Origin: Kiritimatiellia bacterium
GTDB lineage: Bacteria > Verrucomicrobiota > Kiritimatiellia > CAIQIC01 > Lenti-01
Length of the DNA stretch: 32,434 nucleotides
Reading direction: 5' to 3'
Assembly (NCBI GenBank): GCA_017540905.1
Contig: JAFYAC010000087.1
Location: 1 to 32,434 of the forward strand
A program made the translations under genes and the position numbers. The first letter of the stretch is position 1, and every line of letters starts with the position of its first letter. Positions 15,707 to 32,068 of the stretch are shown here, one piece after another. The notes under the pieces are model-generated. The model searched no databases, was not told where the DNA came from, and was given only the letters and a program-made list of their open reading frames with translations.

Positions 15707-15811
15707 TTTTTCCAATCATTGGAAAACCGACGAGAATTTTTTCCAATCATTGGAAAAAACGGTACATTTTTTCCAACCATTGGAAAAAAATTTTCCAATC
15801 ATTGGAAAACT
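15707..15811. repeat. Four-palindrome array 1 (TTTTCCAATCATTGGAAAA type)
   Basis: Four palindromes with core CCAATCATTGG start at 15712, 15743, 15773 and 15795 (spacings 31, 30, 22). Each is flanked by A/T runs, so each can form a stem of 8 bp or more. The third unit is CCAACCATTGG, the others CCAATCATTGG. It lies 312 bp beyond the 3' end of the giant gene. The same design occurs at 31962-32068. Confidence 0.9.
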
Positions 15812-15961
15812 CCCGCTTTCCCGGCGAGCGACCGGATTGTGCCCCCCCCACCCTCCCCAAGGCACCGTGGCGGCGGCCCGTGGGCCCGAGCGGGACGTCA
15901 GGGAAACGGCCCGCGGCGCGAAACACGGCGGGAACGGAGGAAGGGGCCACGGAGGGTTTTG

Positions 15962-16030
15962 GGAGGTGCGGCTTTCAGCCGCGCCATGGACTTGGAGAAG
16001 CGGCGCGGCAGGATGCCACGCCCCCGGAAT
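15962..16030. repeat. Composite palindromic repeat (GGTGCGGC...GCCGCGCC family), copy 3
   Basis: GGAGGTGCGGCTTTCAGCCG followed by CGCCATGGACTTGGAGAAGC and GGCGCGGCAGGATGCC. It is closest to the copies at 591-690 and 2611-2702. Confidence 0.65.
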
Positions 16031-16099
16031 CCACAAGGCGCGTCGGGGACATGCCCGGAACGCTCCGTCCGCGCGGCCGCGACAAAGCGCGGCCCGCCC
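16030..16099. repeat. CGACAAAGCGCGGCC repeat, copy 2
   Basis: Matches 15437-15502: GTCGGGGACATG, CTCCGTCCGCGCGGCCGCGA, CAAAGCGCGGCCC. It lies just past the giant gene's stop codon and its hairpin could act as that gene's terminator. Confidence 0.55.
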
Positions 16100-16122
16100 C
16101 GCGGCCCCCCCCGGTCGCGCCG

Positions 16123-19100
16123 CTACGGGGCGGTTTCGAGGAAGTAGAAGCGGATGGAGTCGGGGGTGGAGGTGCCGGTGTCGAAGGGGACGGTGAGGGT
16201 GGCGGTGGCGCCGGAGCGGGTGCGGGTGGCGGTGTGGGGGACGGTGGCAGCGGGGGCGTCGTCGAGGAGGGAGGTGCGGGTGCGGATGGTGAGTTTCTGG
16301 AGGGCGGCGTCGAGTTCTTCGGGGGTGTCGGCGGTGACGGTGAAGGTCACGGCGCCGCTGGAAGGATCGTAGGTGAGGCTCGAGGGGACGACGCTCAGCG
16401 GGGAGGCGCCGCCCGGCGCGGCCACGGCGCGGCGGACCGCCGCGGTGGAGCCGCCCGCGACGGCGGCGTCCCAGGTGGCGCCGCCGGCGGTGAAGGTGTA
16501 GTCGCCGTCGGGGAGCCAGAGGAAGACGTTTCCGAAGGCGTCGGCGACGATGGAGCCGGTGCCGTAGGATGCGGGGAGATCGCTGAAGGCGACGGGGGCG
16601 TTGGACGCCAGGCCGGTGACGGTGACGCTGTAGACGGGTTCGCCGGCGGCGTTGGTGGGGGCGGCGCCGAGGAGGGAGAGGTCGAGGGCGTGGCTGCCGG
16701 AGCCAGCGAGTTCGCCGAGGGAGCCGCCGGTGATGGCCAGGGTGCCGTTGGCGCCGGTGGAGTCGGCGCCGCGGCCGATGGAGTACGGGACGGGACTGGA
16801 GGTGAATTGGCGGAGGAGGAGGGTGCCGCCGGAAATCGCGATGTCGCCGCCGTCGCCGCCGTCGCCGCCGCCGATGCACGCGGCTCCGCGTCCCCGACTG
16901 AGTTGGAGGATGCCGCTTTGGATGGCCACGGCGCCGCAGCCGTTGGTGTTCCATCCGCCGATGCCCGCGCCCCCGTAGCCGCCGCGGGCTTCGAGGATGC
17001 CGTCGCCGCCGACGGTCAGGGCGGTGCCGGCGGGGACGCCGACGGCCGCGCTGAATTGCGCGCCCCACAGGGTGTTGCTGCCGGCGAGGTGGAGGGTGGC
17101 GGCGATGCCGTCGCCGAGACGGACGGGGATGTAGGGAGGCCCCAGGATGGAGGAAGGGTGGAGGCAGAGGTTGGAGAGGGTGACGGCGCAGTCGGCGGCG
17201 ACGAGGACGGTGACGGCGCCGGATTCGGTGCCGCCGGAGAGGACGCAGTCGGCGGTGAGGGTGAGTTGTTTGGCCGTGGCGTCGTAGAACCAGCCGGGGC
17301 CGGCGAGGCGGCCGACGTCGGTGCCGTCGACGGCGACGCCGCGCGGGGTGTAGGGTTCGGCGGTGGCGTAGGCGCCGTCGACGCGGACGAGGTATTCGGT
17401 GCCGTCGGCGGTGAAGGAGTAGGTGCCGTCGGGCAGCCAGAGGTAGATGTTGCCGGAGGCGTCGGCGTGGATTTCGGAGACGTCGTAGCCGTCGGGGAGA
17501 CCTTCGAGGGCGACGGGGGCGTAGGCGCCGAAGCCGCCGGCGGTGACGCGCCCGACGTCGCGGGTGCCGTCGGTGGCGTGTTCGTTGCCGAAGACGCTGC
17601 CGTAGACGGAGCCGCCGCGGATGACGGGGCGGGGGGACATATAGCCGCCGCCGAACGAGAAGGTGCCGCTTTCGATGGTGGCCTGGGCGCCGCTGCCGCC
17701 CCAGATGGCGTAGTCGCCGACGGCCTTCATGCTGTTGAAGCCGATGCCGCGCAGGGTCGCGCGGGCGCCCGGGTCGAGGACGACGGTGGAGCCGGACGTG
17801 ATTGCGAGGTTGGAGCAGGTGACGCGGGAGTCGTTGGCGAGGTGGAGGTGGATGCGTCGGGCGGTGTTGCTGCCGGAGATGGTGCAGGCGCCCTCGACGG
17901 CGAGCTCGCCGTTGGTGGCGGTGAAGGTCCAGTTGGCGCCGTGGCGGTACATCAGGTCGATGCCGTCGGCGAGGACGCCGACGGGGTCGCCGGCGGGCTC
18001 CGCGGTGTCGCCGGCGTCGTGGACGCTGGCGACGTAGGCGGTGCCGCCGACGTCGAGGTCGTAGAAGCCGTTGGGGAGCCAGAGGACGATCTTGCCAGCG
18101 GGGTCGGCGACGATGCCGTCGGTGCCGTAGGAGCCGGGCGAAACGGCGAGGGCGACGGGGGCGACGGGGGTCAGGCCCTCGACGGTGACGGGCCAGACGG
18201 CCTGGCCGACGGTGTTGGAGGGGGCGGGGACGACGGCGTCGCGGTCGACGACGACGGAGCCGCCGGTGAAGTGGACGAAGCCGCCGGAGTAGGACTGGGC
18301 GCCGCGGCCGATGGCGGGGGCGCTTTCGCCCGCGACGGGGAAGATGGTTCCGCCGGAGAGGGTGATGCGTCCGCAGGTGTTCATGGAGCGCCCGCCGATG
18401 GCGGCGCCGTGGTAGCCGCCGGTGGCGGCGAGGGTGCCGGTGCCCTCGACGGTGAGGGAGGCGTAGAGGGGAACTTCGACGGCGGCGTTGTATTTGCCGC
18501 CGCGGAGGGAGTTCTCGCCGTGGAGCCGGAGGGTGGCGGTGGCGTTGGGCCGGACCACGAGGGCCGGCCGCTCGGTCTCGGCGCCGACGGCAAGGGTCAG
18601 ATTGCTGACAGCGAGGGTGGTGGTGTTGGTGACGGCTACGGAGACGCGCCCGGCGGTGTTGGAGCCGGAGACGACGTGGTCACCGTTGGAGACGACGAGC
18701 CAGCCCGTTATGAAGTTGTAGCTCCAGCCGTCGCCGGAAGCGGCCTGGACGTCGGTGCCGTCCACGAATACGCCGGTCGGCAGGTCGAGGAGGGCGGTGG
18801 TCGGGGCGTCCTCGACATGGGCCCAGAAGGCGGTGCCGTCGACGGTGCCGGTGTAGGTGCCGTTGGGGAGCCAGAGGACGACGGTTCCGGCGGCGTCGGC
18901 GACGATGCCGGAGGTGCCGTAGGCGGCGGGCGCGCCGTCGCGCTCGAAGTCCGCGAAGGCGACGGTGGCGCCGGGGGCCAGGCCCGCGAAGGTGACGGGC
19001 CAGACGGTGACGCCCGCCGCGTCGGTGGCGCCGCCCTGCATCTTGGCGACGTTGGTGACGACGACGGAGCCGCCGGCGATGACGTTGGTGCCGGGGCCGA

Positions 19101-22100
19101 GGGGCGCATAGTCCGGGAAGTAGCCGCTGCCGACGGCGAAGGGCGGCGCGATGGCGGGGCCGAAGTCGGTGAAGACGACGGTGCCGCCGGTGACGGTGAT
19201 GTGCGCGGCCGCGCCGAAGCTCCCGCCGCCGATGCCCGCGCTGTCGCCGACGCCCGTGCCGTCGGGGACCCCGGCCGAGACGGAGACGAGGCCGCCGGAG
19301 ATTTCCACCTTGCCGCCCGCGCCGCCGGGGATGCTCATCGCCCAATCGCCGCTGCCGCCGCCGATGCCCGCGCCAAAGCGGGAAATGGCGGTGACGGTGC
19401 CGCCGGAGATGGCGGCTTCCCCGCCGTCGGCCCTGTGGCCGCCGCCGATGCCCGCGCCGGACCAGGACCGGGCGGCGACGGTGCCGGAGGCGATTTCAAT
19501 GCGTCCGGCGGCTTCCTTCTCGTTGCCGCCGATGGCGGCGCCGGCGTTGGCGGCCTCCGCGAGGAGGGAGCCGTCGCCCGAGATGGAGAGCGAAGTGCCG
19601 GACGGCACGTTGACGGCGGCGTCCATCCCGATGGCGTGGAGCGAGTTGGACCCTTCGAGCGCCAGCGACGCGGAAACGCCGGGGGCAAGCGCGATGACGG
19701 GATGGGACGCGGAGGCGAGGTTCGTGAAGGCGAGGACGAGGTCGCTCGCGGTGAGGGCCATGTCGTTGGAGAGGACGACCCAGACGCGGCCTTCGGTGTT
19801 GGTGCCGGAGAGGACGCGGGCGTCGCCGGAAAGGACGAGCCGCCGGATGCCCCACTCGTAGGTCCAGCCTTCGCCGGAGAGTTCGCTGACGTCGTGCCCG
19901 TCGACGAGGACGCCGTAGGGAACGATGCGCTCGGCGGTGGCCGACGCGCCGTCGACATAGGCGCCGTAGGGGACGCCGTCGATTTCGAAGAGGTGGGTGC
20001 CGTCGGGGAGCCAGAGGTAGATTTGGCCCGCGGCGTCGGCGACGATGCCGTCGGTGTTGTAGTCCGGGAGGCCCGCGATGCCGGTGACGGCGGCGTCCGG
20101 CGCCAAGCCGGGGACGGTGACGCACCAGACGCGCGCGGTGCCGTTGGAGGGAATCGGGGCCACGCTCTCGCCCATGGCGTGGATGCTGCCGCCGGTGAAG
20201 AGCGTCGAGCCGCATTCCTCCGCGCGTTCGTGGCCGATGTCCTGGGCGTTGCTGCCGCCTTGGGCCACCACGGTGCCGCCGGAGATGGCGATGGTGTCGA
20301 CGGTGCCCCCCTGCCCGTAGAGGTCGACCTTGCCGCCGCCGATGCCCGCGCCGTCGCTGCCGCCCGTCGCGGTGACGATGCCGCCGGAGATGGCGATGGC
20401 GCCGACGGTGCCGCCGGGGCCGCCGCCGATGCCCGCGCCGCTGTTGCCGCCCGTCGCGGTGACGGTGCCGCCGCTGACGGTGATGGAATCGACCGTTCCG
20501 CCCAGGCCGCCGCCGATGCCCGCCGCGCTGCCGATGGTGTCGGCCACCACGGTGCCGCCGGTGACGGAAATCGTGCCGCCGCCTTTGGAACCGCCGATGC
20601 CCGCGGCGGTGCTGCCGCCGTGGGCGGTCACGGTGCCGCCGGAAACCACGACGGTGCCGTTCGCTGCTCCTTCGGCGCCGCCGCCGCCGATGCCCGCAGA
20701 GTACATGCCGCCGGTCGCGTTGACGGTGCCGCCGGATATGACGACGGTGCCGGACATCTCGGTGGCGTCGCCGCCGATGCCCGCGCCGTAGTGGCCCCCG
20801 GTCGCGTCGAGGGCTCCGTCGCCGGCGATTTCCAGCGAAGCGCCGGCGGGGACTCTGACGCCGGGCTGCTCGCGGCCGCCGAAGAGGGTGTTCTGCCCTT
20901 CGAGCAGCAGGGTGGCGGCGACGCCGGGGGAAACGGCGATGGCCGCCTTCAACCTCGCGGCATTGAGGGTCAGGCCGCTGGCGGTCAGCGTCATGTCCGC
21001 CGCGACGGTGACGTTCACGCGCCCTTCGGTGTTGGAGCCGGAAACGACGGGGGCGCCGGAGGAGAAGACGAGGTTCGACGCCATGAAATCGTACGTCCAT
21101 CCCGGGCCGAGGCCGGCGCAGACGTCCGTGCCGTCCACGGTGACGCCGGTGGGGTTCGAGGGGTCGATGCGGATGGCGGTGGCGGGGCCGCCTTCGACGC
21201 GGACGACGTAGTCGAGGGAGTTGGCCTTGAAGGCGTAGTCCCCGTCGGCCACGTAGAAGAAGTAGCGGCCTTCCGAATCGGCCGTGGAGACCAGGTTGGT
21301 CGTCACGGCCTGGATTTCGAGGGTCACCTCCGCGCCGGGTTCGAGCCCGGGGACGGTGACGCGGTGGAGGATGTTGGTGTCGGAGGGGTCGGACGGGGGG
21401 AGGTCGCCGGGCGGGACGTCGCTGCCGCCGTCGGCCGCGAAGTCCGTGTCGTGCCCGTACAGCGGGCGGACGGTGGTGTTGGTGTAGGGATAGGGGGTGG
21501 TGAAGTACTGCCCGCCCGCCACGACGACGTGCGCCTTGTTCGTGGCGGCCAGCCAGATGCAGACGAGGCCGTTGGCGTCGGCGACGATGCCGTCGGTGGA
21601 GTAACCGGCGGGGAGGTCGTCGCAGGAGACGTCGACTTCCGCGAACGGCTCGAAGCCGCCCATGAGGACGCGGTAGAGGAGGTTGCTTTCCGCGTCCACG
21701 GGCCGCGGCGCGGCGTTGGTGATCCCGGCGGGCACGACGCTGCCGCCCGTGATGACGGTCGACTTGTACGTGCCGTCGCCCGTCGTGGACAGCGTGTTGC
21801 CCTGCGAATCCACGAAGTCGCTCCAGCTCTGCGCCCCCATGATGTTCCCCGACGAGGGTTTGTCGGCGTTGCCGTAGGCCCAGACCGAACCGCCGGAAAC
21901 CTTGAGCGCCCCGTCCGGCACCAGGATGGACTTGCCGTGCCCCGCGCCGATGCCCGCCGCGCCGGCGCCGCCGTGGCCCTCGAGGATGCCGCCGCGCACG
22001 ACGATCGCGTCGTTGGTCTTGAGGTTCGAGCTGAGCCCGCCGCCGATGCCGGCGGCCTGCTCGCCGCCCCATCCCGCGACGTGGCCCGACTCGAGGATGA

Positions 22101-25100
22101 TTTGCCCCGGAGGCTGGACGCCGCCGCGCGAGCCGACGCCGGCCGCGCCCTTGCCGCCGCGGGCGACGAGCGTGCCGTCGCCCTTGAAGGTGACGACGGC
22201 GTTGCTCGCCACTTCGATGCCCGCCGCGTATTTCCCGCGCCCCGCGACCCAGTTCGTCCGCGTGCCGCCCTCCACCTTGAGGGTGCAGGTGTTGGAGACG
22301 GTGATTGCCGACCAGAATTGGTTGCTCTTCGCCGCCAGCGTCAACGCTTCGAGCGTGACGCTCGACGAGCCGCCCGCCGGAATGGCGATGCGGTGCCCGC
22401 CGTTGGTCGAAACGCCCTGCACGTTGGGGGTGCCGCCGGTCAGCGTCAGGAGCTTGTCCGCGTTGACGTAGTTCCACCCGCTTCCGCTCTGGTCGCGGCC
22501 TTCGATCACGAACGTCCCGTTGACGACGAGGTTGTCCACGACGTGGATTCCGCCGCCTTCGTCGACGCGGATGCAGAAGTAGCGGACGGTGCCGTCCTCC
22601 ATCGTCACCGCGATCTCATACACGTTCACGCTGGACGGCAGCCAGATCACGAGCTTCCCGTTTTCGTCCGTGTACATGTCCTGATCCCCGTAGGAGTACC
22701 TGATGGAGTACCCGCTGTTGGTCGCCACGACGGAGATGTCCATCGAACTGACCTTGTTCGTCAGCACGCCGATGTCCAGCTCCACGGGGAAGACTTTCGC
22801 CGGCGTGGAGTTGGACGGGGCGAACGCGACCGTGTCCAGCGCCGCGTGGATGGAGCCGCCGGTGAAGGTGACGGGGACGCCGAACATGGCGCTCATGCCG
22901 CCGATGCGGGCGGGGGAACCGCTCGTCCGGTAGATGGTGCCGCCGGAGACGCGGACGTACCCGATGCGCCCGAAGTCGCTGCTGCCGATGTCCGCCGCGT
23001 TGGCGCCGCCCGTGGCGCGGATGACGCCACCCTCGATGGTGATGGTGTCCCCGAGCGTCCTCTGGCTCCCCTGGTCGCCGGAGCCGATGCCCGGCGCGTA
23101 CGTCCCGCCGCCGGCCGCCGTCACGGTGCCGGAGGCGATGAGGATGGCGTGCTGGTCGGCGTCCTTGCCGCCGCCGATGCCCGCCGCGCTGGTGCCGCCC
23201 GTCGCCATCACGGCGCCGCCGGAGATGGCGATGGTCCAGTTGCGCCCGTCTTTGCCGCTGCCGATGCCCGCGCCGTTGCTGCCGCCCTGGGCGGTGACCG
23301 TGCCGCCGGAGACCGTGACGGTTCCGTTCGTCCCTCTTTCGCCGCCGCCGATGCCCGCGGCCAGCCCGCCGCCCGTCGCCGTGACGTTGGCGTCGCCGGA
23401 AATCGTGACCGTTGCGGCGCCCGTTGCGCCGCCGCCGATGCCCGCCGAGCAGTAGCCGCCGGTCGCCGTGACGTTGGCGTCGCCGGAAATGGAGATGGTG
23501 CCGCCGCCGCCGGAATCGCCGCCGCCGATGCCCGCGCCGCCGCCGGCGTCGCCCTTGGCCGTCACGGTGCCGCCGGTAATGGTCACGGTTCCGTTCGTCC
23601 CTCTTTCGCCGCCGCCGATGCCCGCGGCGAATTTGCCGCCCGTCGCCGTGACGGTCGCGTCGCCGGATATCGCGATGGTGCCGCCATCGCCGTCGTAGCC
23701 GCCGCCGATGCCCGCGCCGCCGCCGAAGGAAGACTCGCCGGGGCCGCCCTTGGCGGTGACGGTGCCGCCCGTGATGGTGATGGTGCCGCCCGCGCCCTGG
23801 AAGCCGCCGCCGATGCCCGCGCCGCAGCCGGTGCCCGTCGCAACGACCGTGCCGCCGGAAACCGCGATGCTGCCGCCCGGCGCGTACGAGCCGCCGCCGA
23901 TACCCGCGCCCGTGCCGCCGCTGCCGCCCGTCGCCGTCACGTCGCCACCGGAGATGGTGACGGAGCCGCCCGTCCCGCGGGAACCGTTGCCGATGCCCGG
24001 ACCGTTCGCGCCGCCGGTCGCCGCCACCGTGCCCGCGGAGATGGCGATTCCGCCACTCCCGCCACCGATCCCGCCGCCGATGCCGGCCGCGCCGCCGCCG
24101 CCGTTGGCCGTGACGGTGCCGCCGGTGATGGTGATGGTTCCGGTCGCGTTGTCGCCCCCGCCGCCAATGCCCGCCGCGCAACCGCCGCCGGTCGCGGTGA
24201 CGACGGTCGCGTCGCCGGAAATCGCGATGGTGCCGCCCGCCGAGTCCTGGCCGCCGCCGATGCCCGCCCCTTCCTCTCCACCGGTCGCGGTGACGTTGCC
24301 GCCGGTGATGGTGATGGTGCCGCCGGCGCCGTTCTGGCCGCCGCCGATGCCCGCCGACCAATTGCCGCCCTCCGCGATGACCGTGCCGCCGGCAATCGTG
24401 ATGTCGCCGGCCGAGTTGCTGTAGGGGCCGGAGCCGATGCCCGCCCCGTATTCGCCGCCCCGGGCGGTGAGGGTGCCGTCGCCCGAGATGGTGAGCGCCT
24501 CGCCGGTGGACAGGAACACGCCCGACCCGTTTTCGCCCGCCGCGAAGAAGTTGGTCCCTTCGATCGCCAGCGTGACGCTGCGGTTCGATTCGAGCTTGAA
24601 GGCGCTCGGCCCGTACGGCGCGTTCGTGAGGTCGATGGTCACGTCCGTGACCGTGACGTCGCAGTCGGCGTCGGCCAACACCCAGAAGCTGGTGCTGGTG
24701 CCGGCGATGGCGTAGTCCATCTCGTTGGTGAGGGAGACGCGGCGGGTCGCCCAGTCCATGTTCCAGCCGGGGCCGAAGAAGTGCGCGACGTCGCGGCCGT
24801 TGACGGAGAAGCCGGTCTGCCAGACTTCGGCGGTCGTCGCCGCGTCCGAGACGGTGGCGCGGTACGGGGTGTCGTTGGCGAGGAAGGCGTATTCGCCGTT
24901 GGGCAGCCACAGGCGCAGGAGGCCGCTCTCGGAGGGGTAGAGGTCGTTGGTCCCGTAGCCGTCCGGCAGGTTGTGGAACGCGACCAGCTCGTCGGGGTCC
25001 CACGTCTCCAGCTGCACGTCCACCGCCCAGACGTACGTGAAGTCGAGGTTCTTCGGCGTGGGGATCACGTTCGTGGGGCCCGCGAGGATGTTGCCGCCCT

Positions 25101-28100
25101 GGAAGGCGACGAGGCCCGCCTGGCCCCCGATGCCGCCGCTTCCGTCCGAACCCGCACCGATGTCCGAGAGCGACCATCCCTTCGCCACGACCGTACCGCC
25201 CGAGATGAGGATGGTGCCCATCGTGCCGTCGAACGCCGGGCCGATGCCTGGAGCGCGTCCTCCGCCCTCCGCCTCGATCCGCCCGCCGAGGATCGCGACC
25301 GCCCCGCCCCGGCAGCCCGAGCCGAAGCCGATGCCCGCGCCCTGCCACGAGCCGCGGGCTTGGATTGTTCCGCCGAAGATTTCGACCGTCCCGTTCTGCC
25401 CGTCGCGCCCCATGCCGATGCCGGTCGTCTCGTCCTGCGGGCTCTTGGGGACGGTGACCGTGCCGTCCTTGATGCGCACCGTGACGCTCTCGCCGCCGCA
25501 ACCGCCGCCGATGCCCGCGCCGCCCCGGCCGGCCGTGGCCGTGACGGTGCCGCCGTGGATGTTGACGTCCCCCCCGCGGCCCGAACTCCCGCCGCCGATG
25601 CCTGCGCCGAAGTCGAACCCCTGGTCGCCGTCCCGGAAGGAGACGGCCTCCACCGTGGTGCCCGAATTCGTGATCGTGATCGTGCCCGCCCCGCCGCCGG
25701 GGCCGCCGCCGATGCCCGCGCCGCCCTGGGACCCGGTCGCGAAAACCGTGCCGCCCTCGATGGTGATCGTCCCCGCCGCGGCCCCGGTGTTGCCGCCGAT
25801 GCCCGCCGCGCTGCGCCAGGCCGTCGCCGAAATCGGCGCCCCGCCGTCCTTGATGGTGAGGGAGGCGTTGTTCGACGCGCAGACCGCGATGCCCGCCCAG
25901 CCCCATCCCGAAATGAACGTGTTCGTGCCATCCCCCGCTCCCTGCAACTCGACCTTGGCGCCGTTTCCGCCGATGGCGAACGCGGCGCGGTCGTGCGGAT
26001 GCAGGTAGAGGTTGCTCGCCGTGACGCGGCAGCCCGTCAGCGCCGTCACGCCGTACACCTCCGAGGTGCCGGACAAGGTGTAGTGCAGGGGGAGGGTGAG
26101 GAACACGGAGTTCCCGCCGTCGCACCACCAGCCGTCGCCTCCGAGGTAGGCCACGTCCCGGCCGTTGACGGTCAGCCCGACGGGCACGAAGACGTTCGCC
26201 ACCGTGTCCGCCCCGGCCACCCGCGCCACGTATTCCACCGCGCTGCCGCCGTCCACCGCGACCGTGAAGCTGTAGACGCCGTCCGGGAACCAGAAGTAGA
26301 TTTTGCCGTTCTCGTCGGCCCAGATGTCATGGAAGCCGTAGCGGTAAATGTCGGTGGGTCCCACGGGGGTGGTGAAGGCGGTCAACTCGCCCCCCGGCGG
26401 CAGCCCGCCGACCTCCACGCGCCAGACGCGCGCGCCGCCGAGGCCCGTCGGGGCGTTGGTCACGGCGGCGGAGGCCACCGCCACCGAGCCGCCCGTGAAG
26501 CTGACCGGCCCGCCCTGGGAGTGCGAACCGTAGCCCAACCCCACGTCGAAGGGCGCACCGTTCCCGCCTTTGGGGACGACCGTGCCGCCGGTGACGGTGA
26601 CGGTCGCATTCTCGCCGTTGGAGCCGCCGCCGAGCCCCGGTGCGTAGTTGCCGCCCGTCGCATGGACCAGGCCGCCCGAAATCGCGATCGTCCCGCCCGC
26701 CCCGATGTTCCCGCCGCCGATGCCCGCGGCGTCGCCCCCGCCCTGGGCCGTGACGGTGCCGCCCGCGATGGTGCAGCTGCCGCCGGAGCGGTTCATCCCG
26801 CCGCCGAGGCCCGCCGCGCCGAAGCCGGCCGTCGCCGTCACCGTGCCGTTCGAGATGACGATCGTCCCGCCGTTCCCGTAGCTGCCGCCGCCGATGCCCG
26901 CGCCGCCGTCCGCCCCGCCCTGCGCCGTCACGGTGCCGCCCAGGATGGTGCAGCTGACGGCCGCGCCCTGGTGGCCGCCGCCGATGCCCGCGCCGTATTT
27001 GCCGCCGGTGGCCGCCACCTCGCCGCCCGAGATGACGATCGTCCCGCCGGTGCCCTCGTAGCTGCCGCCGCCGATGCCCGCGCCGCCGCTCGCCCCACCC
27101 TGCGCCGTCACCTTCCCGCCCGCGATGGTGCAGCTCCCGCCCGAGCCCCCGCGTTCGCCGGGGGTGCCGCCGCCGCCGATGCCCGCCGCGCTCCATCCGC
27201 CGGTCGCCGAGACCGTGCCGTTCGAGACCGTGACCGACCCCGACGTCTCCGCCCGGGCGCCGCCGATGCCCGCGCCGTAGTCGCCGCCGGCCGCCGCGAG
27301 CGCCCCGTCGCCGTCGATGGCCAGCGAGCCGGCGGCCGGCACCCGGATGCCCGCCGCGTTGGCGCCGCCCCGGAGCGCGTTCGTCCCCGCAAGCGTCAGC
27401 GCGACGCTGCGGCCCCCCTCGAGCGCGAAGGCGGACACCCCGTTCGCGGCGCTTGCGTCGAACAGCGCGTTCGAGAGCGTTACCGCGCAATCCGCCGCCG
27501 CCACCAGCCCCACGTTCGAGATCGACCCCGACACCGTGAACGGCCCCGGCCCCGACAGCTCCAGGCGGCTTCCCAGGTCGTACGTCCACCCCTCGCCCGA
27601 CAGCGCCGCGATATCCACCCCGTTGACCTCCAGCCCCGACACCCACGGCACCGCCACCGTCCCCGCGTCCGCCACCTCCGCGCGGTAGACCGTGCCCGCC
27701 GCCGCGAACACGTGGGCCCCGTTCGCGAGCCACAGATACACCCGTCCCTGCGCGTCCGGGTAGATATCGTTCGTCCCGTAGCCCGCGGGGAGCGCCCGGA
27801 ACGCCACCGGCGCATTCGTGTCCGTCCCCTCCGGCAGCGGCACCGTCACCGGCCAGACCGTCTGGCTGGCCCGGTTCGTCGCCGCCGGCACCACGTCCGC
27901 CGCGCCCGCCGCCACGCTCCCGCCCGTGAACGCCACCCCGCACGTCGCCCCGTACGATTGCGACCGCCCGAAGCCCACCAGGTTCCCCGGATCCGTCCCC
28001 CGCACCGCCGGCACCACCGTGCCGCCCGTGATCGAAATCTCCAGCCCCGTCGATGCCGACGCCCCGCCGATGCCCGCCCCGCCGTCGTTTCCGCCCGTCG

Positions 28101-30357
28101 CCCACACCCGTCCCCCCGTGATGCTCACCCGGCAATCCCGCGAAAGCCCCGACAGCCCGATGCCCGCCCCGTCCTGGCGGCCCGCCGCCACCACCGTCCC
28201 GCCCGAAATCTCCACCACCGTCCCCACGCTCGCCCGGCCGCCGCCGATGCCCGCGGCGGACGTCCCGTAGCCCGTCGCCACCTCGCCGCCCGAAATCCGC
28301 ACCACCGCGTTCGTCCCGCGCCCGCCGCCGCCGATGCACGCCGCCTGGTAGCCGCCCGCCGACAGGATCCGCCCGCCCGAAACGACCACCTCCGGCCCCG
28401 TGCTGGCCTCCCCGCCGCCGATGCCGGCGCCCCATGACCCGCCATCCGCCTGCTCCACCAGCGCCCCGTCCTCCACCGAAACCGCCCCCCCCTGGCCGTA
28501 TTTCCCCGACCCGATGGCCGCCCCGGACGCCCCCCCGTAGGCCGCGACCGTCCCCCCCGCCAGCGCGATCGACCCCGCCCCTTGCCCGTTGCCCCCGCCG
28601 ATGCCCGCCGCGTTGTTTCCGCCCCGCGCTTCCAGCCGCCCCGCGTTGGGCTCCTGCCCCTCCGCATCCACGATCCGCAGCGACCGCCCGTCCCCGACCT
28701 GCACCCCCGCCGCCCCGCTGCCGCCCCGGAGCACGTTCGTCCCCGCCAGCGCCAGCGTCGCCGAGACCCCCGATCCGAGCTCCAGCGCGGCCGCCCCGTC
28801 CACCCCGCGAACGTCCAGCGAGAGGTTGCTCACGGCCACCGTGCACGACGCCGCCACCCGCACGTACAACCCCGACGCCGCCCCCGTCAGCGCAAACGGC
28901 CCGCTCCCCGACAGCTCCACCAGATGCGCCCCGTCGTACGACCACCCCGGCCCCGCGCCCATCGCCACGTCATCCCCGTTCACCAACAGCCCCATGCCGT
29001 CCTGCGCCGCCGTCTCCACCGCCGCCCCGTCGACCACCGCCGCCACGTACCGCACCTCGCCGCCCGACACCGCCTTGAACCGGTACGACCCGTCCGGCAG
29101 CCAGAGATACACCTTCCCGTCCCCGTCCGCCACGATCCCCTCCGTCCCGTACCCCGCCAGCAGCCCCGCGATCCCCGTCACCGGCTCGTCCGCCGCGAAC
29201 CCCGAAACCGCCACCCGCCACACCGCCGCCCCCGCCGTATTCACCGGCGCCTCGCGGATTTCATCCGCCACCGTCCCGACCGACCCGCCCGACAACGTCA
29301 CCCGGTACTCGCAGCTGTCCGAGGACCCCGGGCCGATGTTCCAGCCGTATCCGCCGGCCACGGGGCGCACCGTCCCGCCCGAGATGGCGATGGCGGCCGT
29401 GCTCCCGTAACCCGTCGTATTCCCGCCCCCGCCGATGCCCGCCCCGTCCCCGGTCCCCTTCGCCACCACCAACCCGCCCCGGATCGAGACATCGCACCCC
29501 ACCGTGCGGTATCCCCCGCCGATGCCCGCCGAATTCCCCCCGCCGGTCGCCGTCACCGTCCCGCCCGAAATCACCACCGACCCGCCGCGCACCGCGGTCG
29601 TCCCGCTGCCGATGCCCGCCCCGCCCTCGCCCCAGCCCGACCCGCCGGTCGCCGACACCGTCCCGCCCGAAATCGTGACATCCCCCGCCTTGCCTTGGTA
29701 CCCCCCGCCGATGCCCGCCCCGTAGGAGACCCCCGTCGCCGACACAGTCCCGCCCGAAATCGCAACCGTCCCCCCATTGCCCTTGTACCCCCCGCCGATG
29801 CCCGCGCTGGAGGCCCCCGCCTGCGCCGTGACCCTCCCCCCCTCGATCGTGACGCTCCCCGCGTTCGTGTACGCCCCGGCGCCGATGCCCGCGCCCCAGC
29901 TACCGCCCGTCGCCGTCAGCGCCCCGTCGCCCCGGATCGTGATCGACCGCCCCTCCAGCACCCCCAGCCCCGCGCAGTCGCCGCCGCCCGAGAACGAATT
30001 CGTCCCGGCCAGCTCCAGCACCGGCGAATACCCGTTGTAGACCGACACCGGCGTCCCGCCCGACAGCGTCAGGTTGCTGGCGACCATCGTGCAATTCGCC
30101 ATGATGACGATCCGCACGCTGCCGCCGGACGCCGTCCCGTCCACGACATACGTCATCCCGTTCCGCTGGAGGATCACCTCCTCCCCGTTGCGCGACCACC
30201 CGTCCCCGCTCCCGGCCGAAACGTCGGTCCCGTTGACCCGCACCCCGGCATCCTGGGCCCAGGCCACACCCCCGCCCGCCGCCGCGAAGGCCCAAAGCGC
30301 GGCCCCCGCCGCCCACGCCGCGACCCACCGTCCAAACCGATTGTTCGTGCAACTCAT
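16123..30357 (-). CDS. Giant exported repeat protein, eleven beta-solenoid-like modules (4744 aa)
   Basis: A signal peptide (residues 1-35, ending AWAQ) is followed by eleven modules. Each opens with V-(N/D)-G-x-D-V followed by G-x-G-W-x-Y; the starts are near residues 37, 456, 907, 1391, 1847, 2607, 3069, 3481, 3862, 4124 and 4338. Each has a core of ISGGTVTATGG-AGIGGG repeats and closes with a linker GYGT-x2-I-x-AD-x2-G-x-(V/I)-YLWLPDG. Lengths run from about 210 to 760 residues; module 5 is the largest. A distinct C-terminal domain of about 100 residues ends SIRFYFLETAP. The Gly/Val/Thr/Ser-rich short repeats suggest a right-handed beta-helix, as in surface carbohydrate-binding or adhesin-like proteins. 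No autotransporter barrel, sortase motif or PEP-CTERM tail is visible, so anchoring is unknown. ATG 30357 follows GGAGTAA by 7 nt. It appears monocistronic. Confidence 0.9.
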   Translation of the reverse strand: MSCTNNRFGRWVAAWAAGAALWAFAAAGGGVAWAQDAGVRVNGTDVSAGSGDGWSRNGEEVILQRNGMTYVVDGTASGGSVRIVIMANCTMVASNLTLSGGTPVSVYNGYSPVLELAGTNSFSGGGDCAGLGVLEGRSITIRGDGALTATGGSWGAGIGAGAYTNAGSVTIEGGRVTAQAGASSAGIGGGYKGNGGTVAISGGTVSATGVSYGAGIGGGYQGKAGDVTISGGTVSATGGSGWGEGGAGIGSGTTAVRGGSVVISGGTVTATGGGNSAGIGGGYRTVGCDVSIRGGLVVAKGTGDGAGIGGGGNTTGYGSTAAIAISGGTVRPVAGGYGWNIGPGSSDSCEYRVTLSGGSVGTVADEIREAPVNTAGAAVWRVAVSGFAADEPVTGIAGLLAGYGTEGIVADGDGKVYLWLPDGSYRFKAVSGGEVRYVAAVVDGAAVETAAQDGMGLLVNGDDVAMGAGPGWSYDGAHLVELSGSGPFALTGAASGLYVRVAASCTVAVSNLSLDVRGVDGAAALELGSGVSATLALAGTNVLRGGSGAAGVQVGDGRSLRIVDAEGQEPNAGRLEARGGNNAAGIGGGNGQGAGSIALAGGTVAAYGGASGAAIGSGKYGQGGAVSVEDGALVEQADGGSWGAGIGGGEASTGPEVVVSGGRILSAGGYQAACIGGGGRGTNAVVRISGGEVATGYGTSAAGIGGGRASVGTVVEISGGTVVAAGRQDGAGIGLSGLSRDCRVSITGGRVWATGGNDGGAGIGGASASTGLEISITGGTVVPAVRGTDPGNLVGFGRSQSYGATCGVAFTGGSVAAGAADVVPAATNRASQTVWPVTVPLPEGTDTNAPVAFRALPAGYGTNDIYPDAQGRVYLWLANGAHVFAAAGTVYRAEVADAGTVAVPWVSGLEVNGVDIAALSGEGWTYDLGSRLELSGPGPFTVSGSISNVGLVAAADCAVTLSNALFDASAANGVSAFALEGGRSVALTLAGTNALRGGANAAGIRVPAAGSLAIDGDGALAAAGGDYGAGIGGARAETSGSVTVSNGTVSATGGWSAAGIGGGGTPGERGGSGGSCTIAGGKVTAQGGASGGAGIGGGSYEGTGGTIVISGGEVAATGGKYGAGIGGGHQGAAVSCTILGGTVTAQGGADGGAGIGGGSYGNGGTIVISNGTVTATAGFGAAGLGGGMNRSGGSCTIAGGTVTAQGGGDAAGIGGGNIGAGGTIAISGGLVHATGGNYAPGLGGGSNGENATVTVTGGTVVPKGGNGAPFDVGLGYGSHSQGGPVSFTGGSVAVASAAVTNAPTGLGGARVWRVEVGGLPPGGELTAFTTPVGPTDIYRYGFHDIWADENGKIYFWFPDGVYSFTVAVDGGSAVEYVARVAGADTVANVFVPVGLTVNGRDVAYLGGDGWWCDGGNSVFLTLPLHYTLSGTSEVYGVTALTGCRVTASNLYLHPHDRAAFAIGGNGAKVELQGAGDGTNTFISGWGWAGIAVCASNNASLTIKDGGAPISATAWRSAAGIGGNTGAAAGTITIEGGTVFATGSQGGAGIGGGPGGGAGTITITNSGTTVEAVSFRDGDQGFDFGAGIGGGSSGRGGDVNIHGGTVTATAGRGGAGIGGGCGGESVTVRIKDGTVTVPKSPQDETTGIGMGRDGQNGTVEIFGGTIQARGSWQGAGIGFGSGCRGGAVAILGGRIEAEGGGRAPGIGPAFDGTMGTILISGGTVVAKGWSLSDIGAGSDGSGGIGGQAGLVAFQGGNILAGPTNVIPTPKNLDFTYVWAVDVQLETWDPDELVAFHNLPDGYGTNDLYPSESGLLRLWLPNGEYAFLANDTPYRATVSDAATTAEVWQTGFSVNGRDVAHFFGPGWNMDWATRRVSLTNEMDYAIAGTSTSFWVLADADCDVTVTDVTIDLTNAPYGPSAFKLESNRSVTLAIEGTNFFAAGENGSGVFLSTGEALTISGDGTLTARGGEYGAGIGSGPYSNSAGDITIAGGTVIAEGGNWSAGIGGGQNGAGGTITITGGNVTATGGEEGAGIGGGQDSAGGTIAISGDATVVTATGGGCAAGIGGGGDNATGTITITGGTVTANGGGGAAGIGGGIGGGSGGIAISAGTVAATGGANGPGIGNGSRGTGGSVTISGGDVTATGGSGGTGAGIGGGSYAPGGSIAVSGGTVVATGTGCGAGIGGGFQGAGGTITITGGTVTAKGGPGESSFGGGAGIGGGYDGDGGTIAISGDATVTATGGKFAAGIGGGERGTNGTVTITGGTVTAKGDAGGGAGIGGGDSGGGGTISISGDANVTATGGYCSAGIGGGATGAATVTISGDANVTATGGGLAAGIGGGERGTNGTVTVSGGTVTAQGGSNGAGIGSGKDGRNWTIAISGGAVMATGGTSAAGIGGGKDADQHAILIASGTVTAAGGGTYAPGIGSGDQGSQRTLGDTITIEGGVIRATGGANAADIGSSDFGRIGYVRVSGGTIYRTSGSPARIGGMSAMFGVPVTFTGGSIHAALDTVAFAPSNSTPAKVFPVELDIGVLTNKVSSMDISVVATNSGYSIRYSYGDQDMYTDENGKLVIWLPSSVNVYEIAVTMEDGTVRYFCIRVDEGGGIHVVDNLVVNGTFVIEGRDQSGSGWNYVNADKLLTLTGGTPNVQGVSTNGGHRIAIPAGGSSSVTLEALTLAAKSNQFWSAITVSNTCTLKVEGGTRTNWVAGRGKYAAGIEVASNAVVTFKGDGTLVARGGKGAAGVGSRGGVQPPGQIILESGHVAGWGGEQAAGIGGGLSSNLKTNDAIVVRGGILEGHGGAGAAGIGAGHGKSILVPDGALKVSGGSVWAYGNADKPSSGNIMGAQSWSDFVDSQGNTLSTTGDGTYKSTVITGGSVVPAGITNAAPRPVDAESNLLYRVLMGGFEPFAEVDVSCDDLPAGYSTDGIVADANGLVCIWLAATNKAHVVVAGGQYFTTPYPYTNTTVRPLYGHDTDFAADGGSDVPPGDLPPSDPSDTNILHRVTVPGLEPGAEVTLEIQAVTTNLVSTADSEGRYFFYVADGDYAFKANSLDYVVRVEGGPATAIRIDPSNPTGVTVDGTDVCAGLGPGWTYDFMASNLVFSSGAPVVSGSNTEGRVNVTVAADMTLTASGLTLNAARLKAAIAVSPGVAATLLLEGQNTLFGGREQPGVRVPAGASLEIAGDGALDATGGHYGAGIGGDATEMSGTVVISGGTVNATGGMYSAGIGGGGAEGAANGTVVVSGGTVTAHGGSTAAGIGGSKGGGTISVTGGTVVADTIGSAAGIGGGLGGTVDSITVSGGTVTATGGNSGAGIGGGPGGTVGAIAISGGIVTATGGSDGAGIGGGKVDLYGQGGTVDTIAISGGTVVAQGGSNAQDIGHERAEECGSTLFTGGSIHAMGESVAPIPSNGTARVWCVTVPGLAPDAAVTGIAGLPDYNTDGIVADAAGQIYLWLPDGTHLFEIDGVPYGAYVDGASATAERIVPYGVLVDGHDVSELSGEGWTYEWGIRRLVLSGDARVLSGTNTEGRVWVVLSNDMALTASDLVLAFTNLASASHPVIALAPGVSASLALEGSNSLHAIGMDAAVNVPSGTSLSISGDGSLLAEAANAGAAIGGNEKEAAGRIEIASGTVAARSWSGAGIGGGHRADGGEAAISGGTVTAISRFGAGIGGGSGDWAMSIPGGAGGKVEISGGLVSVSAGVPDGTGVGDSAGIGGGSFGAAAHITVTGGTVVFTDFGPAIAPPFAVGSGYFPDYAPLGPGTNVIAGGSVVVTNVAKMQGGATDAAGVTVWPVTFAGLAPGATVAFADFERDGAPAAYGTSGIVADAAGTVVLWLPNGTYTGTVDGTAFWAHVEDAPTTALLDLPTGVFVDGTDVQAASGDGWSYNFITGWLVVSNGDHVVSGSNTAGRVSVAVTNTTTLAVSNLTLAVGAETERPALVVRPNATATLRLHGENSLRGGKYNAAVEVPLYASLTVEGTGTLAATGGYHGAAIGGRSMNTCGRITLSGGTIFPVAGESAPAIGRGAQSYSGGFVHFTGGSVVVDRDAVVPAPSNTVGQAVWPVTVEGLTPVAPVALAVSPGSYGTDGIVADPAGKIVLWLPNGFYDLDVGGTAYVASVHDAGDTAEPAGDPVGVLADGIDLMYRHGANWTFTATNGELAVEGACTISGSNTARRIHLHLANDSRVTCSNLAITSGSTVVLDPGARATLRGIGFNSMKAVGDYAIWGGSGAQATIESGTFSFGGGYMSPRPVIRGGSVYGSVFGNEHATDGTRDVGRVTAGGFGAYAPVALEGLPDGYDVSEIHADASGNIYLWLPDGTYSFTADGTEYLVRVDGAYATAEPYTPRGVAVDGTDVGRLAGPGWFYDATAKQLTLTADCVLSGGTESGAVTVLVAADCAVTLSNLCLHPSSILGPPYIPVRLGDGIAATLHLAGSNTLWGAQFSAAVGVPAGTALTVGGDGILEARGGYGGAGIGGWNTNGCGAVAIQSGILQLSRGRGAACIGGGDGGDGGDIAISGGTLLLRQFTSSPVPYSIGRGADSTGANGTLAITGGSLGELAGSGSHALDLSLLGAAPTNAAGEPVYSVTVTGLASNAPVAFSDLPASYGTGSIVADAFGNVFLWLPDGDYTFTAGGATWDAAVAGGSTAAVRRAVAAPGGASPLSVVPSSLTYDPSSGAVTFTVTADTPEELDAALQKLTIRTRTSLLDDAPAATVPHTATRTRSGATATLTVPFDTGTSTPDSIRFYFLETAP

Positions 30358-30730: not shown

Positions 30731-30830
30731 GCGGATGCGCAGTCGGACCGCGGGCGGCCCGCCCGCGAAGCTTCCGAAAAGCGGAAACCAAGCGAAAAGC
30801 CCAATGTTTTCTGTAATCTCGCGCCCCGTT
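30731..30830 (+). repeat. CGGGCGGCCCGCCCGCG repeat, copy 1 of 3
   Basis: GCGGGCGGCCCGCCCGCGAA is followed by GCTTCCGAAAAGCGGAAACC, AAGCGAAAAGCCCAATGTTT and TCTGTAATCTCGCGCC. GCGGGCGGCCCGCCCGC and CTTCCGAAAAGCGGAAACC can both form hairpins. An adjoining GGTGCGACTTTCCAGTCGCG at 30843 is a variant hairpin. Confidence 0.7.
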
Positions 30831-30903
30831 GCTCACCCAAGAGGTGCGACTTTCCAGTCGCGCCCCACCGGCTGGAGAGCGGAAGGGATGCGGGAGGGAG
30901 GAC

Positions 30904-31011
30904 TGCGGCTGTGCCGTCGGGGCGCGGGCGGCCCGCCCGCGAAGCTTCCGAAAAGCGAAAACCAAGCGGAAATCCCAATGTTTTCTGCAATCTCACATCC
31001 AGCTGCGCGCC
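30904..31011 (+). repeat. CGGGCGGCCCGCCCGCG repeat, copy 2 of 3
   Basis: Same block order as copy 1: GCGGGCGGCCCGCCCGCGAA, CTTCCGAAAAGCGAAAACCA, CCCAATGTTTTCTGCAATCT, ending GCTGCGCGCC. Confidence 0.7.
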
Positions 31012-31057
31012 AGGACGCCGCCCCGCCTCCGAACGCCCGCGCTGCCCGTTCCCCAGC

Positions 31058-31151
31058 TTCCGCGCCACTTCCGGAGGTGCGGCATCCTGCCGCGCCATGG
31101 CGGATGTGGGGCGCAAGAATCCCTCACGCAAAGTCCGCCAAGGCCGCCAAG
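31058..31151. repeat. Composite hairpin plus CGCAAAGTCCGCCAAG repeat, copy 2
   Basis: Begins TTCCGCGCCACTTCCGGAGG and contains TGCGGCATCCTGCCGCGCCA, then GCGCAAGAATCCCTCACGCA and AAGTCCGCCAAGGCCGCCAA. Second copy of 30601-30710. Confidence 0.7.
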
Positions 31152-31180
31152 TGTGCGGGAGGGGAGCGAGAGGGAAGAAC

Positions 31181-31208
31181 TCACGCAGAGGCGCAGAGAC
31201 GCAGAGGG
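31181..31208. repeat. CACGCAGAGGCGCAGAG repeat
   Basis: TCACGCAGAGGCGCAGAGAC followed by GCAGAGGG. This is a (GCAGAG)n-type word set that I recall as a dispersed repeat in several unrelated bacterial phyla. It lies 30 bp after the related CACGCAAAGTCCGCC word in the preceding repeat. Confidence 0.5.
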
Positions 31209-31224
31209 CTTGCAGGACGCTTTT

Positions 31225-31315
31225 GCACAAAAGGGCAAAAAGGAAACAAAAGGGCGGCTGGAGTGCAGAAGGGGGTCCATCATTGAAAACCAAGAAAACC
31301 GCTTTGCGGACATGG
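31225..31315 (+). repeat. AAAAAGG...GGCTGGAGTGC...AAAACCGC repeat, copy 1
   Basis: Blocks AAAAAGGAAACAAAAGGGCG, GCTGGAGTGCAGAAGGGGG, ATTGAAAACCAAGAAAACCG and GCGGACATGG. An inverted copy is at 31846-31925. Confidence 0.65.
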
Positions 31316-31329
31316 AAAGCGGGAGGACG

Positions 31330-31435
31330 GCGGATGCATAGTCGGGCCGCGGGCGTCCCGCCCGCGAAGCTTCCGAAAAGCAAAAAACAAGCGAAAACAC
31401 CAATGCTTTTTGTAATCTCGCGCCAAGCTACGCGC
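31330..31435 (+). repeat. CGGGCGGCCCGCCCGCG repeat, copy 3 of 3
   Basis: Begins CGGATGCATAGTCGGGCCGC, like copy 1 (CGGATGCGCAGTCGGACCGC), then GGGCGTCCCGCCCGCGAAGC and TTCCGAAAAGCAAAAAACAA. It ends TGTAATCTCGCGCC, as copy 1 does, then GCTACGCGCC. Confidence 0.7.
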
Positions 31436-31570
31436 CTGGAAGCCCCCCTCCCGGACTTCCCGCGATGCTTCCTTACAAGCTTCCGCGCCCCTTCCGAATG
31501 CGAGCCCGAAAGCCGCCCCGCAAACTCGTCTCTCGTCACTCGCCAGAAGGCGCGCCACCGCATCTTGAAT

Positions 31571-31612
31571 GATTCGATGATTGGATTGACGCGATTGGAT
31601 TGATTTGATTGG
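31571..31612. repeat. Degenerate GATTG tract
   Basis: The stretch is built of GATT, GATTG and GATTTG words (GATTCGATGATTGGATTGAC, then GCGATTGGATTGATTTGATT). It looks like a low-complexity tract. No function is evident. Confidence 0.5.
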
Positions 31613-31845
31613 AGAGCCGTCGTTGATACGCCATGCCGGTTTTGTGCTGCATGCCAGGAAACCCAACAACACCGAAACCGCCTACGCCGGCGACTATCTC
31701 CATTACGAACTGGTACCATGACGCAATAAAAGAGGCCGCATCCCGTGTCCCTTCCGCCGGGCGGAGTTGTCCGCCCGGCGACTTTGAAAACGATGTCCCG
31801 AGTTGCCCAAGTTGTCTCCCCCATCCGCTCTCCAAGCGCGTTCCT

Positions 31846-31925
31846 GTCCGCGAGGCGGTTTTCATGGTTTTCAATGTAGACATCCCTCCCGCACTCCAGC
31901 CGCTCATTTTGTTCCCTTTTTGACC
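31846..31925 (-). repeat. AAAAAGG...GGCTGGAGTGC...AAAACCGC repeat, copy 2 (inverted)
   Basis: On the minus strand it reads AAAAAGGGAACAAAATGAGC, GGCTGGAGTGCGGGAGGG, ATTGAAAACCATGAAAACCG and CGCGGACAGGAA, matching 31225-31315. The inverted pair encloses about 530 bp that include the third CGGGCGG repeat and the GATTG tract. Confidence 0.65.
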
Positions 31926-31961
31926 TGTTTGTTTTTCCTCTCCAGCCCTTTTCACCCGAAA

Positions 31962-32068
31962 ATTTTTTCCAATCATTGGAAAACGCCCGAAAAATTTTTC
32001 CAATCATTGGAAAAACCGCCCCGTTTTTCCAACCATTGGAAAACTTTTTTCCAATCATTGGAAAATCC
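31962..32068. repeat. Four-palindrome array 2 (TTTTCCAATCATTGGAAAA type)
   Basis: Palindromes start at 31969, 32000, 32029 and 32051 (spacings 31, 29, 22). The third is CCAACCATTGG, the rest CCAATCATTGG, as in array 1. Flanks are also similar: CCCGAAAA before, and GCGGATTGCGCGCCCC (32089-32104) after, against CCGGATTGTGCCCCCC (15832-15847) after array 1. It lies between the giant gene's upstream region and the lipoprotein gene. Confidence 0.9.

Follow-up and report, generated by a model that had tools for sequence, protein, structure and literature searches.

The palindromic word dispersed through the intergenic DNA of this Kiritimatiellia genome is probably a docking site for a putative protein, and the arrays that it forms are, in the reading that we hold with moderate confidence, phased intergenic sites for a putative protein dimer with a general architectural or insulating role. 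A sequence-specific protein is predicted because the word is invariant, its centres are lineage-specific and its spacing is near-helical. The window, i.e., the whole stretch of 32,434 nucleotides analysed here, holds two such arrays. When it was searched with up to three mismatches, 17 matches were found, 16 of which are the eight units counted once per strand, whereas shuffled sequence gave a mean of 0.49 and a maximum of 3; likewise, the 15-mer has 464 exact copies in its own 3.5-Mb genome and its reversed control has none. Thus, a chance origin of the units in the window is excluded.

Arrays in the window

As the first-pass annotation had described, each array is composed of four TTTTCCAAYCATTGGAAAA palindromes, a design confirmed by direct reading and by a repeat search of the window, with the mismatch search recovering the same units. 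Array 1 (15698..15839 including its flanking words, forward strand) has its units at 15708..15726, 15739..15757, 15769..15787 and 15791..15809, with start-to-start steps of 31, 30 and 22 bp. Array 2 (31955..32095, also forward) has them at 31965..31983, 31996..32014, 32025..32043 and 32047..32065, with steps of 31, 29 and 22 bp. In both, the third unit is CCAACCATTGG (CCAACC, the C form), the other three belonging to the T form. The flanking words said to be common to both arrays were confirmed in position: CCCGAAA precedes them at 15698-15704 and 31955-31961, and GGATTG follows at 15834-15839 and 32090-32095, in each case 26 nt beyond the final 15-bp core. Array 1 is embedded in a repeat-rich intergenic kilobase (15165..16122, no strand assigned), and the space between the arrays is largely taken up by a giant open frame on the reverse strand (16123..30357), which encodes 4744 aa from its first start, our own caller placing the start at 30177.

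Copy number and spacing grammar

That the arrays might simply be frequent in this genome had been considered from the beginning, and this is the case: besides the 464 exact copies of the word, about 140 arrays are estimated, or one per about 25 kb, by scaling up from a sample of 32 own-genome arrays with 104 exact units, so that a pair of arrays separated by 16 kb is nothing unusual and not special to the giant gene. In 32 sampled own-genome arrays, the 85 neighbouring pairs stand 21-22 or 29-31 bp apart and at no other distance (one own-genome pair at 102 bp shows up with other detector settings), and 68 of them follow three combinations of unit and spacing, namely T-31-T, T-29/30-C and C-22-T. 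This upholds the idea of a composite unit whose order and spacing are fixed, as opposed to palindromes in random numbers and at random spacings. The rule that the third unit is the variant holds in both window arrays but not in general, since arrays contain from one to seven units and the C unit is tied to the place directly before the 22-bp step. Across the genus of the window, 101 distinct arrays hold 465 units, of which 451 belong to three unit forms (the detector allowing at most two mismatches); in these array loci, all 245 TTCCAATNATTGGAA words have C or G as their centre base. The letters of the spacers vary, the 79 T-30-C pairs having 75 different spacers, and spacers of one class have a partial consensus in common.

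Distribution across the class

The word of the window is the version, in its lineage, of a unit that occurs across the class, TTTCCAA-NNN-TTGGAAA. This unit was found in 56 of 146 class genomes, with up to 1,108 sites, and its centre triplet differs between lineages. A phylum scan with TTCCAAYCATTGGAA matched 32 of 288 genomes, among them four from outside the class, each of these with a single hit. Steps of 31-32 bp are found in G018, G019, G020, G021, G044, G056 and G330, with rarer values of 22, 42, 62 and 63 bp. The 23 distinct spacings fit a period of 10.15 bp best (R 0.88, compared with 0.83 at 10.5 bp) and, since most lineages use a single spacing, this phasing is carried by the rarer values. 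Copy number is labile: within genus g41 it goes from 0 (G354) and 2 (G097, G129) up to 336 (G192), and none of the seven genomes from the same-family genera g4, g6 and g7 had units in the 146-genome class scan. The search for decayed relics in array-less genera, run with 32-bp pairs only, is a weak test, finding 1, 0 and 3 pairs in G000, G002 and G001, respectively, and thus hardly detecting arrays even within the genus of the window. Lability counts against an architectural role, because an essential system should not vanish so easily, and the absence of array 2 from G002 and the lone units of G021 (15 of 49 clusters) weigh in the same direction.

Position relative to genes

According to our own codon-usage caller, only two of 109 arrays lie within confident genes, and there is a peak directly behind stop codons: 22 of 73 arrays lie 0-30 bp past a stop, and the distance to a stop is at most 60 bp for 31 of 61, against 16.7 expected from random placement in the same gap. 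In G021, 21 of 36 arrays are found 0-20 bp past a stop, and 8 of 49 clusters fall inside called genes. Orientation was counted for the 52 of 109 arrays with two confident neighbours and a gap of 100-1200 bp, of which 14 occupy convergent gaps (compared with 29 of 187 gaps without arrays) and seven divergent ones; in G021, eight of 16 divergent gaps hold arrays. The 20 neighbours named with Pfam form a varied set, including T2SSE, S1, W/Y tRNA synthetase, EF-G and G3P acyltransferase, among others. It is this intergenic position beside unrelated genes in all orientations that suggests a general role in architecture or insulation.

Replication polarity, a candidate prompted by the orientations in G084, was rejected, the strands looking mixed by eye in the 100 places listed out of 107. 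Array 1 had no match in a plasmid search, and a search of viral contigs returned one contig.

Constraint on the units

In 11 pairs of arrays from related genomes, units changed at six of 780 nt and spacers at 37 of 438, i.e., about tenfold less in the units, a comparison in which conserved units are favoured by a detector that needs near-perfect ones. Five of the six unit changes fall at positions 7 or 9. These pairs remained of 16 candidates; the five left out were L073/window, which had been mispaired with array 1, L112/L069, which depended on two other pairs, and L037/L055, L092/L114 and L039/L091, which had no arrays of the same shape. None of the 16 units with two mismatches carried a compensated stem mismatch, and compensation by the neighbouring unit was found for none of 92 stem mismatches; what is conserved thus appears to be sequence rather than pairing. 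Dispersed palindromes of bacteria are in many known cases related to transposons, and their stems drift with compensation.

A proposed phased protein-binding array

Fixed spacing and constrained, uncompensated units support the multi-site protein-binding array that had been listed among the candidate functions. Each palindrome, here with the centre TCA, CCA or TCG, would most likely bind a protein dimer, and neighbouring sites are separated by two or three turns of the helix (21-22 or 30-32, more rarely 42 or 62-63 bp). The bound dimers would then share one face of the DNA and could touch each other or wrap the DNA, much as Lrp-type octamers do on phased 15-bp palindromes. In the grammar of the window's genus (T-31-T, T-30-C and C-22-T), the C unit turns its altered half-site towards the three-turn side and its intact half towards the two-turn side. 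As a point against this reading, tandem copying could partly pass on the fixed spacing, since spacers have a partial consensus and orthologous arrays differ by the gain or loss of one 31-bp unit.

A more specific proposal, which we advance tentatively, is that in this one class of bacteria a dedicated DNA-binding protein, or a re-targeted Lrp-type octamer, coats or wraps intergenic DNA at hundreds of phased arrays, forming a chromatin-like punctuation placed mostly behind genes and written in a lineage-specific spacing code of two- and three-turn steps with a matched half-site change. The predicted protein could be fished out with one DNA bait and, if found, would make intergenic architecture on the scale of a genome tractable in the Kiritimatiellae, a little-studied group for which the near-absence of the arrays in some members of one genus provides natural comparisons. 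Among the matches listed, literature searches gave no description of this palindrome family, and those with CCAATCATTGG, CCAAGCCTTGG/CCAAGGCTTGG and FSNHWK gave nothing on bacterial genome repeats. The palindrome passages seen in the Kiritimatiell literature concern CRISPR or HigA, and the portions of PMC7356697 and PMC12306157 covered by term look-ups contain no mention.

Alternative explanations

The alternative that survives best, possible although clearly less probable than protein-binding sites, is a selfish palindrome of the REP/BIME kind, copied by some enzyme and tolerated in intergenic DNA, in which case the spacings would be those of a copied module. Passages of PMC2817692 and PMC3733652 describe REP/BIME elements as many short intergenic palindromes, often behind genes, organized in mosaics of unit and spacer and bound by proteins. 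The family described here likewise has tens to thousands of short, mostly intergenic palindromes, hundreds of them in the genome of the window, with modules of unit plus spacer and a place behind stop codons. The shifts in copy number within genera and the partial spacer consensus also fit, as do the "long form" copies with a shared downstream word, mostly 26 nt off (8 of 22 own arrays and 12 of 69 others, against 0 of 91 in a control span), and a site at which G001 carries an array and G000 another repeat. However, GTAG or CTAC was found within 16 nt of none of 32 arrays (CGTC and GACG being near three each), and a RAYT-driven origin was rejected, since RAYT presence is uncorrelated with arrays in 57 genomes: PF01797 occurs in 49 of them, and G042 has 36 exact words and no PF01797. 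REP-like elements would also be at odds with near-helical spacing and with invariant units that are constrained in place and whose stems are uncompensated. Moreover, the loss of array 2 from G002 was an ordinary small deletion that removed about 50 bp of flank and left the right half of unit 4 as a scar, not an excision at the ends of an element. The REP-like element of the first-pass annotation agrees with copy number and position, but neither its GTAG tag nor a RAYT transposase that follows the arrays was found.

It is unlikely that the arrays are the operators of an ordinary regulon: a strict 15-bp palindrome and clustered sites are indeed typical of operators, but the estimated 140 arrays adjoin unrelated genes and prefer stop codons and convergent gaps over promoters. 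Even less probable is an RNA element at 3' ends, whose transcribed hairpins would stop transcription or protect messages. The peak right behind stop codons speaks for it, as does the folding of array 1, which is better than that of shuffles on both strands (z -3.9 and -5.3), as would be expected of palindromes. In G021, the centres of 14 of 51 pairs are reverse-complementary, the shuffled mean being 7.1 and the largest value in 1000 shuffles 15. In the genus of the window, by contrast, one of 85 pairs has a second centre reverse-complementary to the first, so that pairing between neighbouring units, with a weak preference in G021 and none in the genus, was discarded as an explanation. The arrays between divergent genes argue against transcribed hairpins too, as does the lack of an Rfam match for the window at gathering scores, and RNA has no need of a helical period. 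The structured RNA suggested earlier is disfavoured by stems without compensatory changes, and sites for a dimeric DNA-binding protein fit better than an RNA hairpin. Finally, a mobile or duplicated 16-kb segment bounded by the two arrays, as their like shape and orientation on either side of the giant gene and the interrupted synteny near array 1 (homology with G001 and G002 ends near 15165 and picks up at 16127 in G002, on other contigs) might indicate, is largely contradicted already and hardly credible, given the many similar arrays elsewhere in the genome, the occupation of the array 2 site in G001, the deletion in G002 and, in this same genome, a giant-gene ortholog with zero arrays in the 19.9 kb read around it, which places the giant gene outside the array system.

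Candidate proteins

As for the protein dimer predicted by the favoured explanation, several families come into question. The NrpR operator is GGAA-N6-TTCC, and an NrpR-type gene adjoins an array in L110; nevertheless, NrpR was rejected as the factor, being without a match in the array genomes G002 and G021 and present in the array-less G005, G007 and G010. Fur/PerR boxes are 15-bp palindromes of 7-1-7 design, as is the unit described here, whose centre triplet varies between lineages; the PerR box, which we take to be TTATAATNATTATAA, differs from TTCCAATNATTGGAA at two positions per half. ParB/Noc and other chromosome-organising families also have dispersed strict palindromes, bound by proteins that spread or cluster, but we know of no ParB/Noc-type sites in phased arrays of this kind.

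In layout there is a likeness to the sites of Lrp/AsnC proteins, for which the passages of PMC10201364 on BarR describe octamers that bind 15-bp semipalindromes separated by two or three turns of the helix, with the DNA wrapped. Rows of several 15-bp palindromes at such distances are common to both, whereas the Lrp/AsnC operators presented there serve single intergenic regions and the sites described here are genome-wide. PF01037 (Lrp/AsnC) was found in all 56 genomes with exact units and also in 67 of 90 without, the lists being compared by eye and 20 listed negatives checked; G341, with two loose 32-bp pairs, gave no Lrp match. In an alignment of 20 Lrp/AsnC proteins (15 from array genomes, five from genomes without), zero columns separate the two groups. 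Divergence is much greater over the N-terminal 62 columns than elsewhere, with 37 of 62 against 87 of 97 columns matching between G000 and G007, and 51 of 62 against 89 of 97 between G192 and G097. In the DNA covered around the Lrp gene, no unit with up to one mismatch lies within 900 bp of the Lrp open stretch in 13 of the 15 array genomes (in G000, the upstream DNA ends after about 400 bp). In the other two, a one-mismatch unit is located 32 bp before the Lrp open stretch (G081), and two exact units are located inside it, the start codon not being assigned (G330).

Two arrays of common design

Array 1 (15708-15809) and array 2 (31965-32065), located by direct reading and a repeat search beyond each end of the giant gene (open frame 16123..30357, minus strand), each consist of four 19-bp palindromes, with start spacings of 31-30-22 and 31-29-22, respectively. 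In both, CCAACC replaces CCAATC in unit 3, and the flanking words CCCGAAA (before) and GGATTG (after) stand at equal distance. The identical design and shared flanks described in the first-pass annotation are thus seen again, with 17 palindrome matches in the window, 16 of them within the arrays, against a mean of 0.49 in shuffled sequence. No called stop codon is close to array 1 (311 and 562 bp away, own gene caller), and the giant gene starts 1,785 bp left of array 2. Beside array 1 lie two dispersed repeats of about 200 bp (15169-15375) and 130 bp (15394-15521), the former with several copies in the same-genus genomes G001 and G002 and the latter with at least one match in G001, among the matches listed.

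Abundance and order of the units

Exact copies of the 15-mer TTCCAAYCATTGGAA number 464 in the window's genome (reversed control, 0) and 375 and 414 in G001 and G002. Since 104 exact units form 32 arrays in 21 own-genome stretches picked for holding arrays (353,843 bases in total), about 140 arrays are estimated for the genome, in agreement with the earlier suggestion that they may simply be frequent. A composite unit of conserved order and spacing had also been proposed, and is borne out by the 85 neighbouring pairs of these 32 arrays, all spaced at 21-22 or 29-31 bp. Denoting units by their centres (T, TCA; C, CCA), the pairs comprise 29 C-22-T, 19 T-31-T, 16 T-30-C, 4 T-29-C and 17 others; a C unit therefore usually stands about 30 bp after the preceding unit and 22 bp before the next, at whatever place in the array. 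The variant core is third in both window arrays, as first noted, but across the sampled arrays it is usually tied to this spacing context and not to the third place. A larger set, adding 72 loci of G001, G002 and RGIG3480 retrieved through a C-22-T pattern, repeats these preferences (137 C-22-T, 90 T-31-T, 79 T-30-C), with few pairs at 23, 32, 40 and 51 bp.

Among 465 units in 101 distinct arrays, 238 have the centre TCA, 174 CCA and 39 TCG (G form), the remaining 14 being departures inside the detector's limit of two mismatches; spacers hold their lengths but follow no more than a loose consensus in their letters. In the genus arrays, one minus-strand frame of the T unit contains TGA, which is missing from the C and G forms; the permitted centre changes thus also take away that stop codon.

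In 11 equal-shape array pairs at matching flanks, the units show 6 differences in 780 positions, five of them at positions 7 and 9, where change is permitted; the spacers show 37 in 438. Decayed arrays are under-represented in this comparison because the detector demands near-perfect units. Between orthologous arrays a complete 31-bp unit may also be present in one and missing from the other (L037/L055), or T and C units may be exchanged (L068/L088), and an array of G001 is absent in the genome of the window, where another tandem repeat stands. That G001 array has six units between two genes (L071:6555-6725); its counterpart is a tandem palindrome of TATCTAG repeats (L119:17530-17610).

Distribution across the class

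The arrays are a real, ordered, class-wide element family. The general unit, TTTCCAA-NNN-TTGGAAA, is found in 56 of 146 class genomes, with 1,108 copies in G330, 1,010 in G018, 712 in G021 (2.5 Mb) and 508 in the genome of the window. Units paired at 32 bp (up to three mismatches) occur in 62 of the 146; the reversed control matched in three (G100, G205 and G312), probably through shifted readings of the same arrays. A phylum scan with TTCCAAYCATTGGAA matched 32 of 288 genomes, including four from other parts of the phylum that gave a single hit apiece. In G018 and G021, which belong to the order of the window's genome, 17 of 21 clusters around rare TTCCAAYCATTGGAA words contain more units (up to three mismatches). 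Most of these stand 31-33 bp from one another, and many have the centres GCC or GGC, which predominate in both genomes; TCA/TGA predominates in G330. Adjacent spacings, sampled up to 110 bp, are 31-32 bp in G019, G021, G044, G056 (with one of 42) and G018 (also 62-63), 31 bp in G020 and 32 bp in G330 (with single 22 and 33), regular 22- and 30-bp steps being confined, among sampled genomes, to the genus of the window. No description of this family was found among the papers searched.

Nature of the element

A protein-bound phased array is the most likely reading of the family and, in our judgement, a somewhat probable one; a selfish REP-like element ranks second and is rather unlikely. The latter draws on a GGATTG-like word that trails 8 of the 22 own arrays with at least three units and 12 of 69 at other loci, exactly 26 nt past the last core in 14 of 20 cases (range 15-39), and that is found in none of 91 equal spans before the first unit. 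This shared word favours some copying of whole modules, the best sign of a REP-like origin; both window arrays are of this long form. The two readings overlap, as REP-like origin and present protein binding may both apply.

As to RNA, array 1 folds well when either strand is taken alone, as expected of any palindrome. Among mismatched units in phase with a perfect one (73 with one mismatch, 16 with two), stem compensation was found in 0 of 16 two-mismatch units, and compensation by a neighbouring unit in 0 of 92 cases. Reverse-complementary centres occur in 14 of 51 pairs in G021 (shuffled mean 7.1) and in 1 of 85 in the genus of the window. The 23 distinct spacings fit a period of 10.15 bp best (R 0.88; R 0.83 at 10.5 bp), a phase argument that depends on few values other than 31-32. 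Absent stem compensation and near-helical-turn spacing together favour double-stranded sites of a putative dimeric protein over RNA.

Candidate binding proteins

Lrp/AsnC proteins offer the closest working analogy for such putative protein-bound arrays: passages of PMC10201364 describe BarR-type Lrp octamers bound to 15-bp semipalindromes that stand in rows at intervals of two or three turns. An Lrp/AsnC match is present in 56 of 56 genomes with exact units and also in 67 of 90 without; units regularly flanking the gene were not found, and none of the columns of 20 aligned proteins separates array from array-less genomes. In this alignment the N-terminal 62 columns vary much faster than the rest (for example, 37/62 identical between the genome of the window and array-less G007, versus 87/97), so a shift in binding specificity between genomes is possible. 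Such fast divergence of the N-terminal DNA-binding part among related genomes is unusual for a near-universal, mostly single-copy class protein (genes in L273-L292).

Neither Y1/RAYT transposase nor NrpR presence separates array from array-less genomes. G056 has 63 weak Y1_Tnp matches (232 candidates at first look), far above any other of 57 relatives. Unit counts within genus g41 (G084, G097, G129, G162, G192, G253, G271, G354, G357), range from 0 to 336, a natural contrast for finding the binding factor.

Genomic position

By our home-made gene caller, 2 of 109 arrays in the genus of the window lie inside confident genes. The 52 between two confident genes occupy 31 co-directional, 14 convergent and 7 divergent gaps, compared with 123, 29 and 35 among 187 gaps without arrays. 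Arrays tend to follow stop codons, 22 of 73 at 0-30 bp and 31 of 61 within 60 bp (16.7 expected from random placement in the same gaps). In G021, 21 of 36 follow a stop at a distance of 0-20 bp, called genes enclose 8 of 49 clusters, and a cluster is present in 8 of 16 divergent gaps. Pfam names of 20 array neighbours gave no common pathway.

In the window's genome, arrays stand 133-176 bp ahead of the called starts of two EF-G-type genes (L117:5025-7046, L122:12231-14330), one array per gene. On an IMG/VR contig (IMGVR_UViG_3300035698_006241, L103:3188-3580), three unit-like words are read through in frame (FPVVGK..FSNHWK..FQSLEK) inside a 130-aa open frame with an HTH-like start by eye and no Pfam match.

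The giant gene

There is no sign of the giant gene being moved by the arrays, and the idea that they delimit a mobile or duplicated segment was not upheld, as G002 keeps the gene without arrays in the stretch covered and G001 carries array 2 at the same site. The G002 ortholog lies on a single contig, which matches window 16127-22247 (89%), 32142-32434 (95%) and further pieces, with no arrays in the 19.9 kb covered. Array 2 was lost there through a deletion of about 148 bp, the sequence jumping from the left flank into the last unit, whose right half, TTGGAAAA, is kept. In both G001 and G002 the genes left of array 1 are found on separate contigs, and homology ends near 15165, which places array 1 within a rearranged, repeat-rich kilobase. 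Further left, a TetR-type regulator stands directly upstream of an FMN-reductase-like gene (10890-12185).
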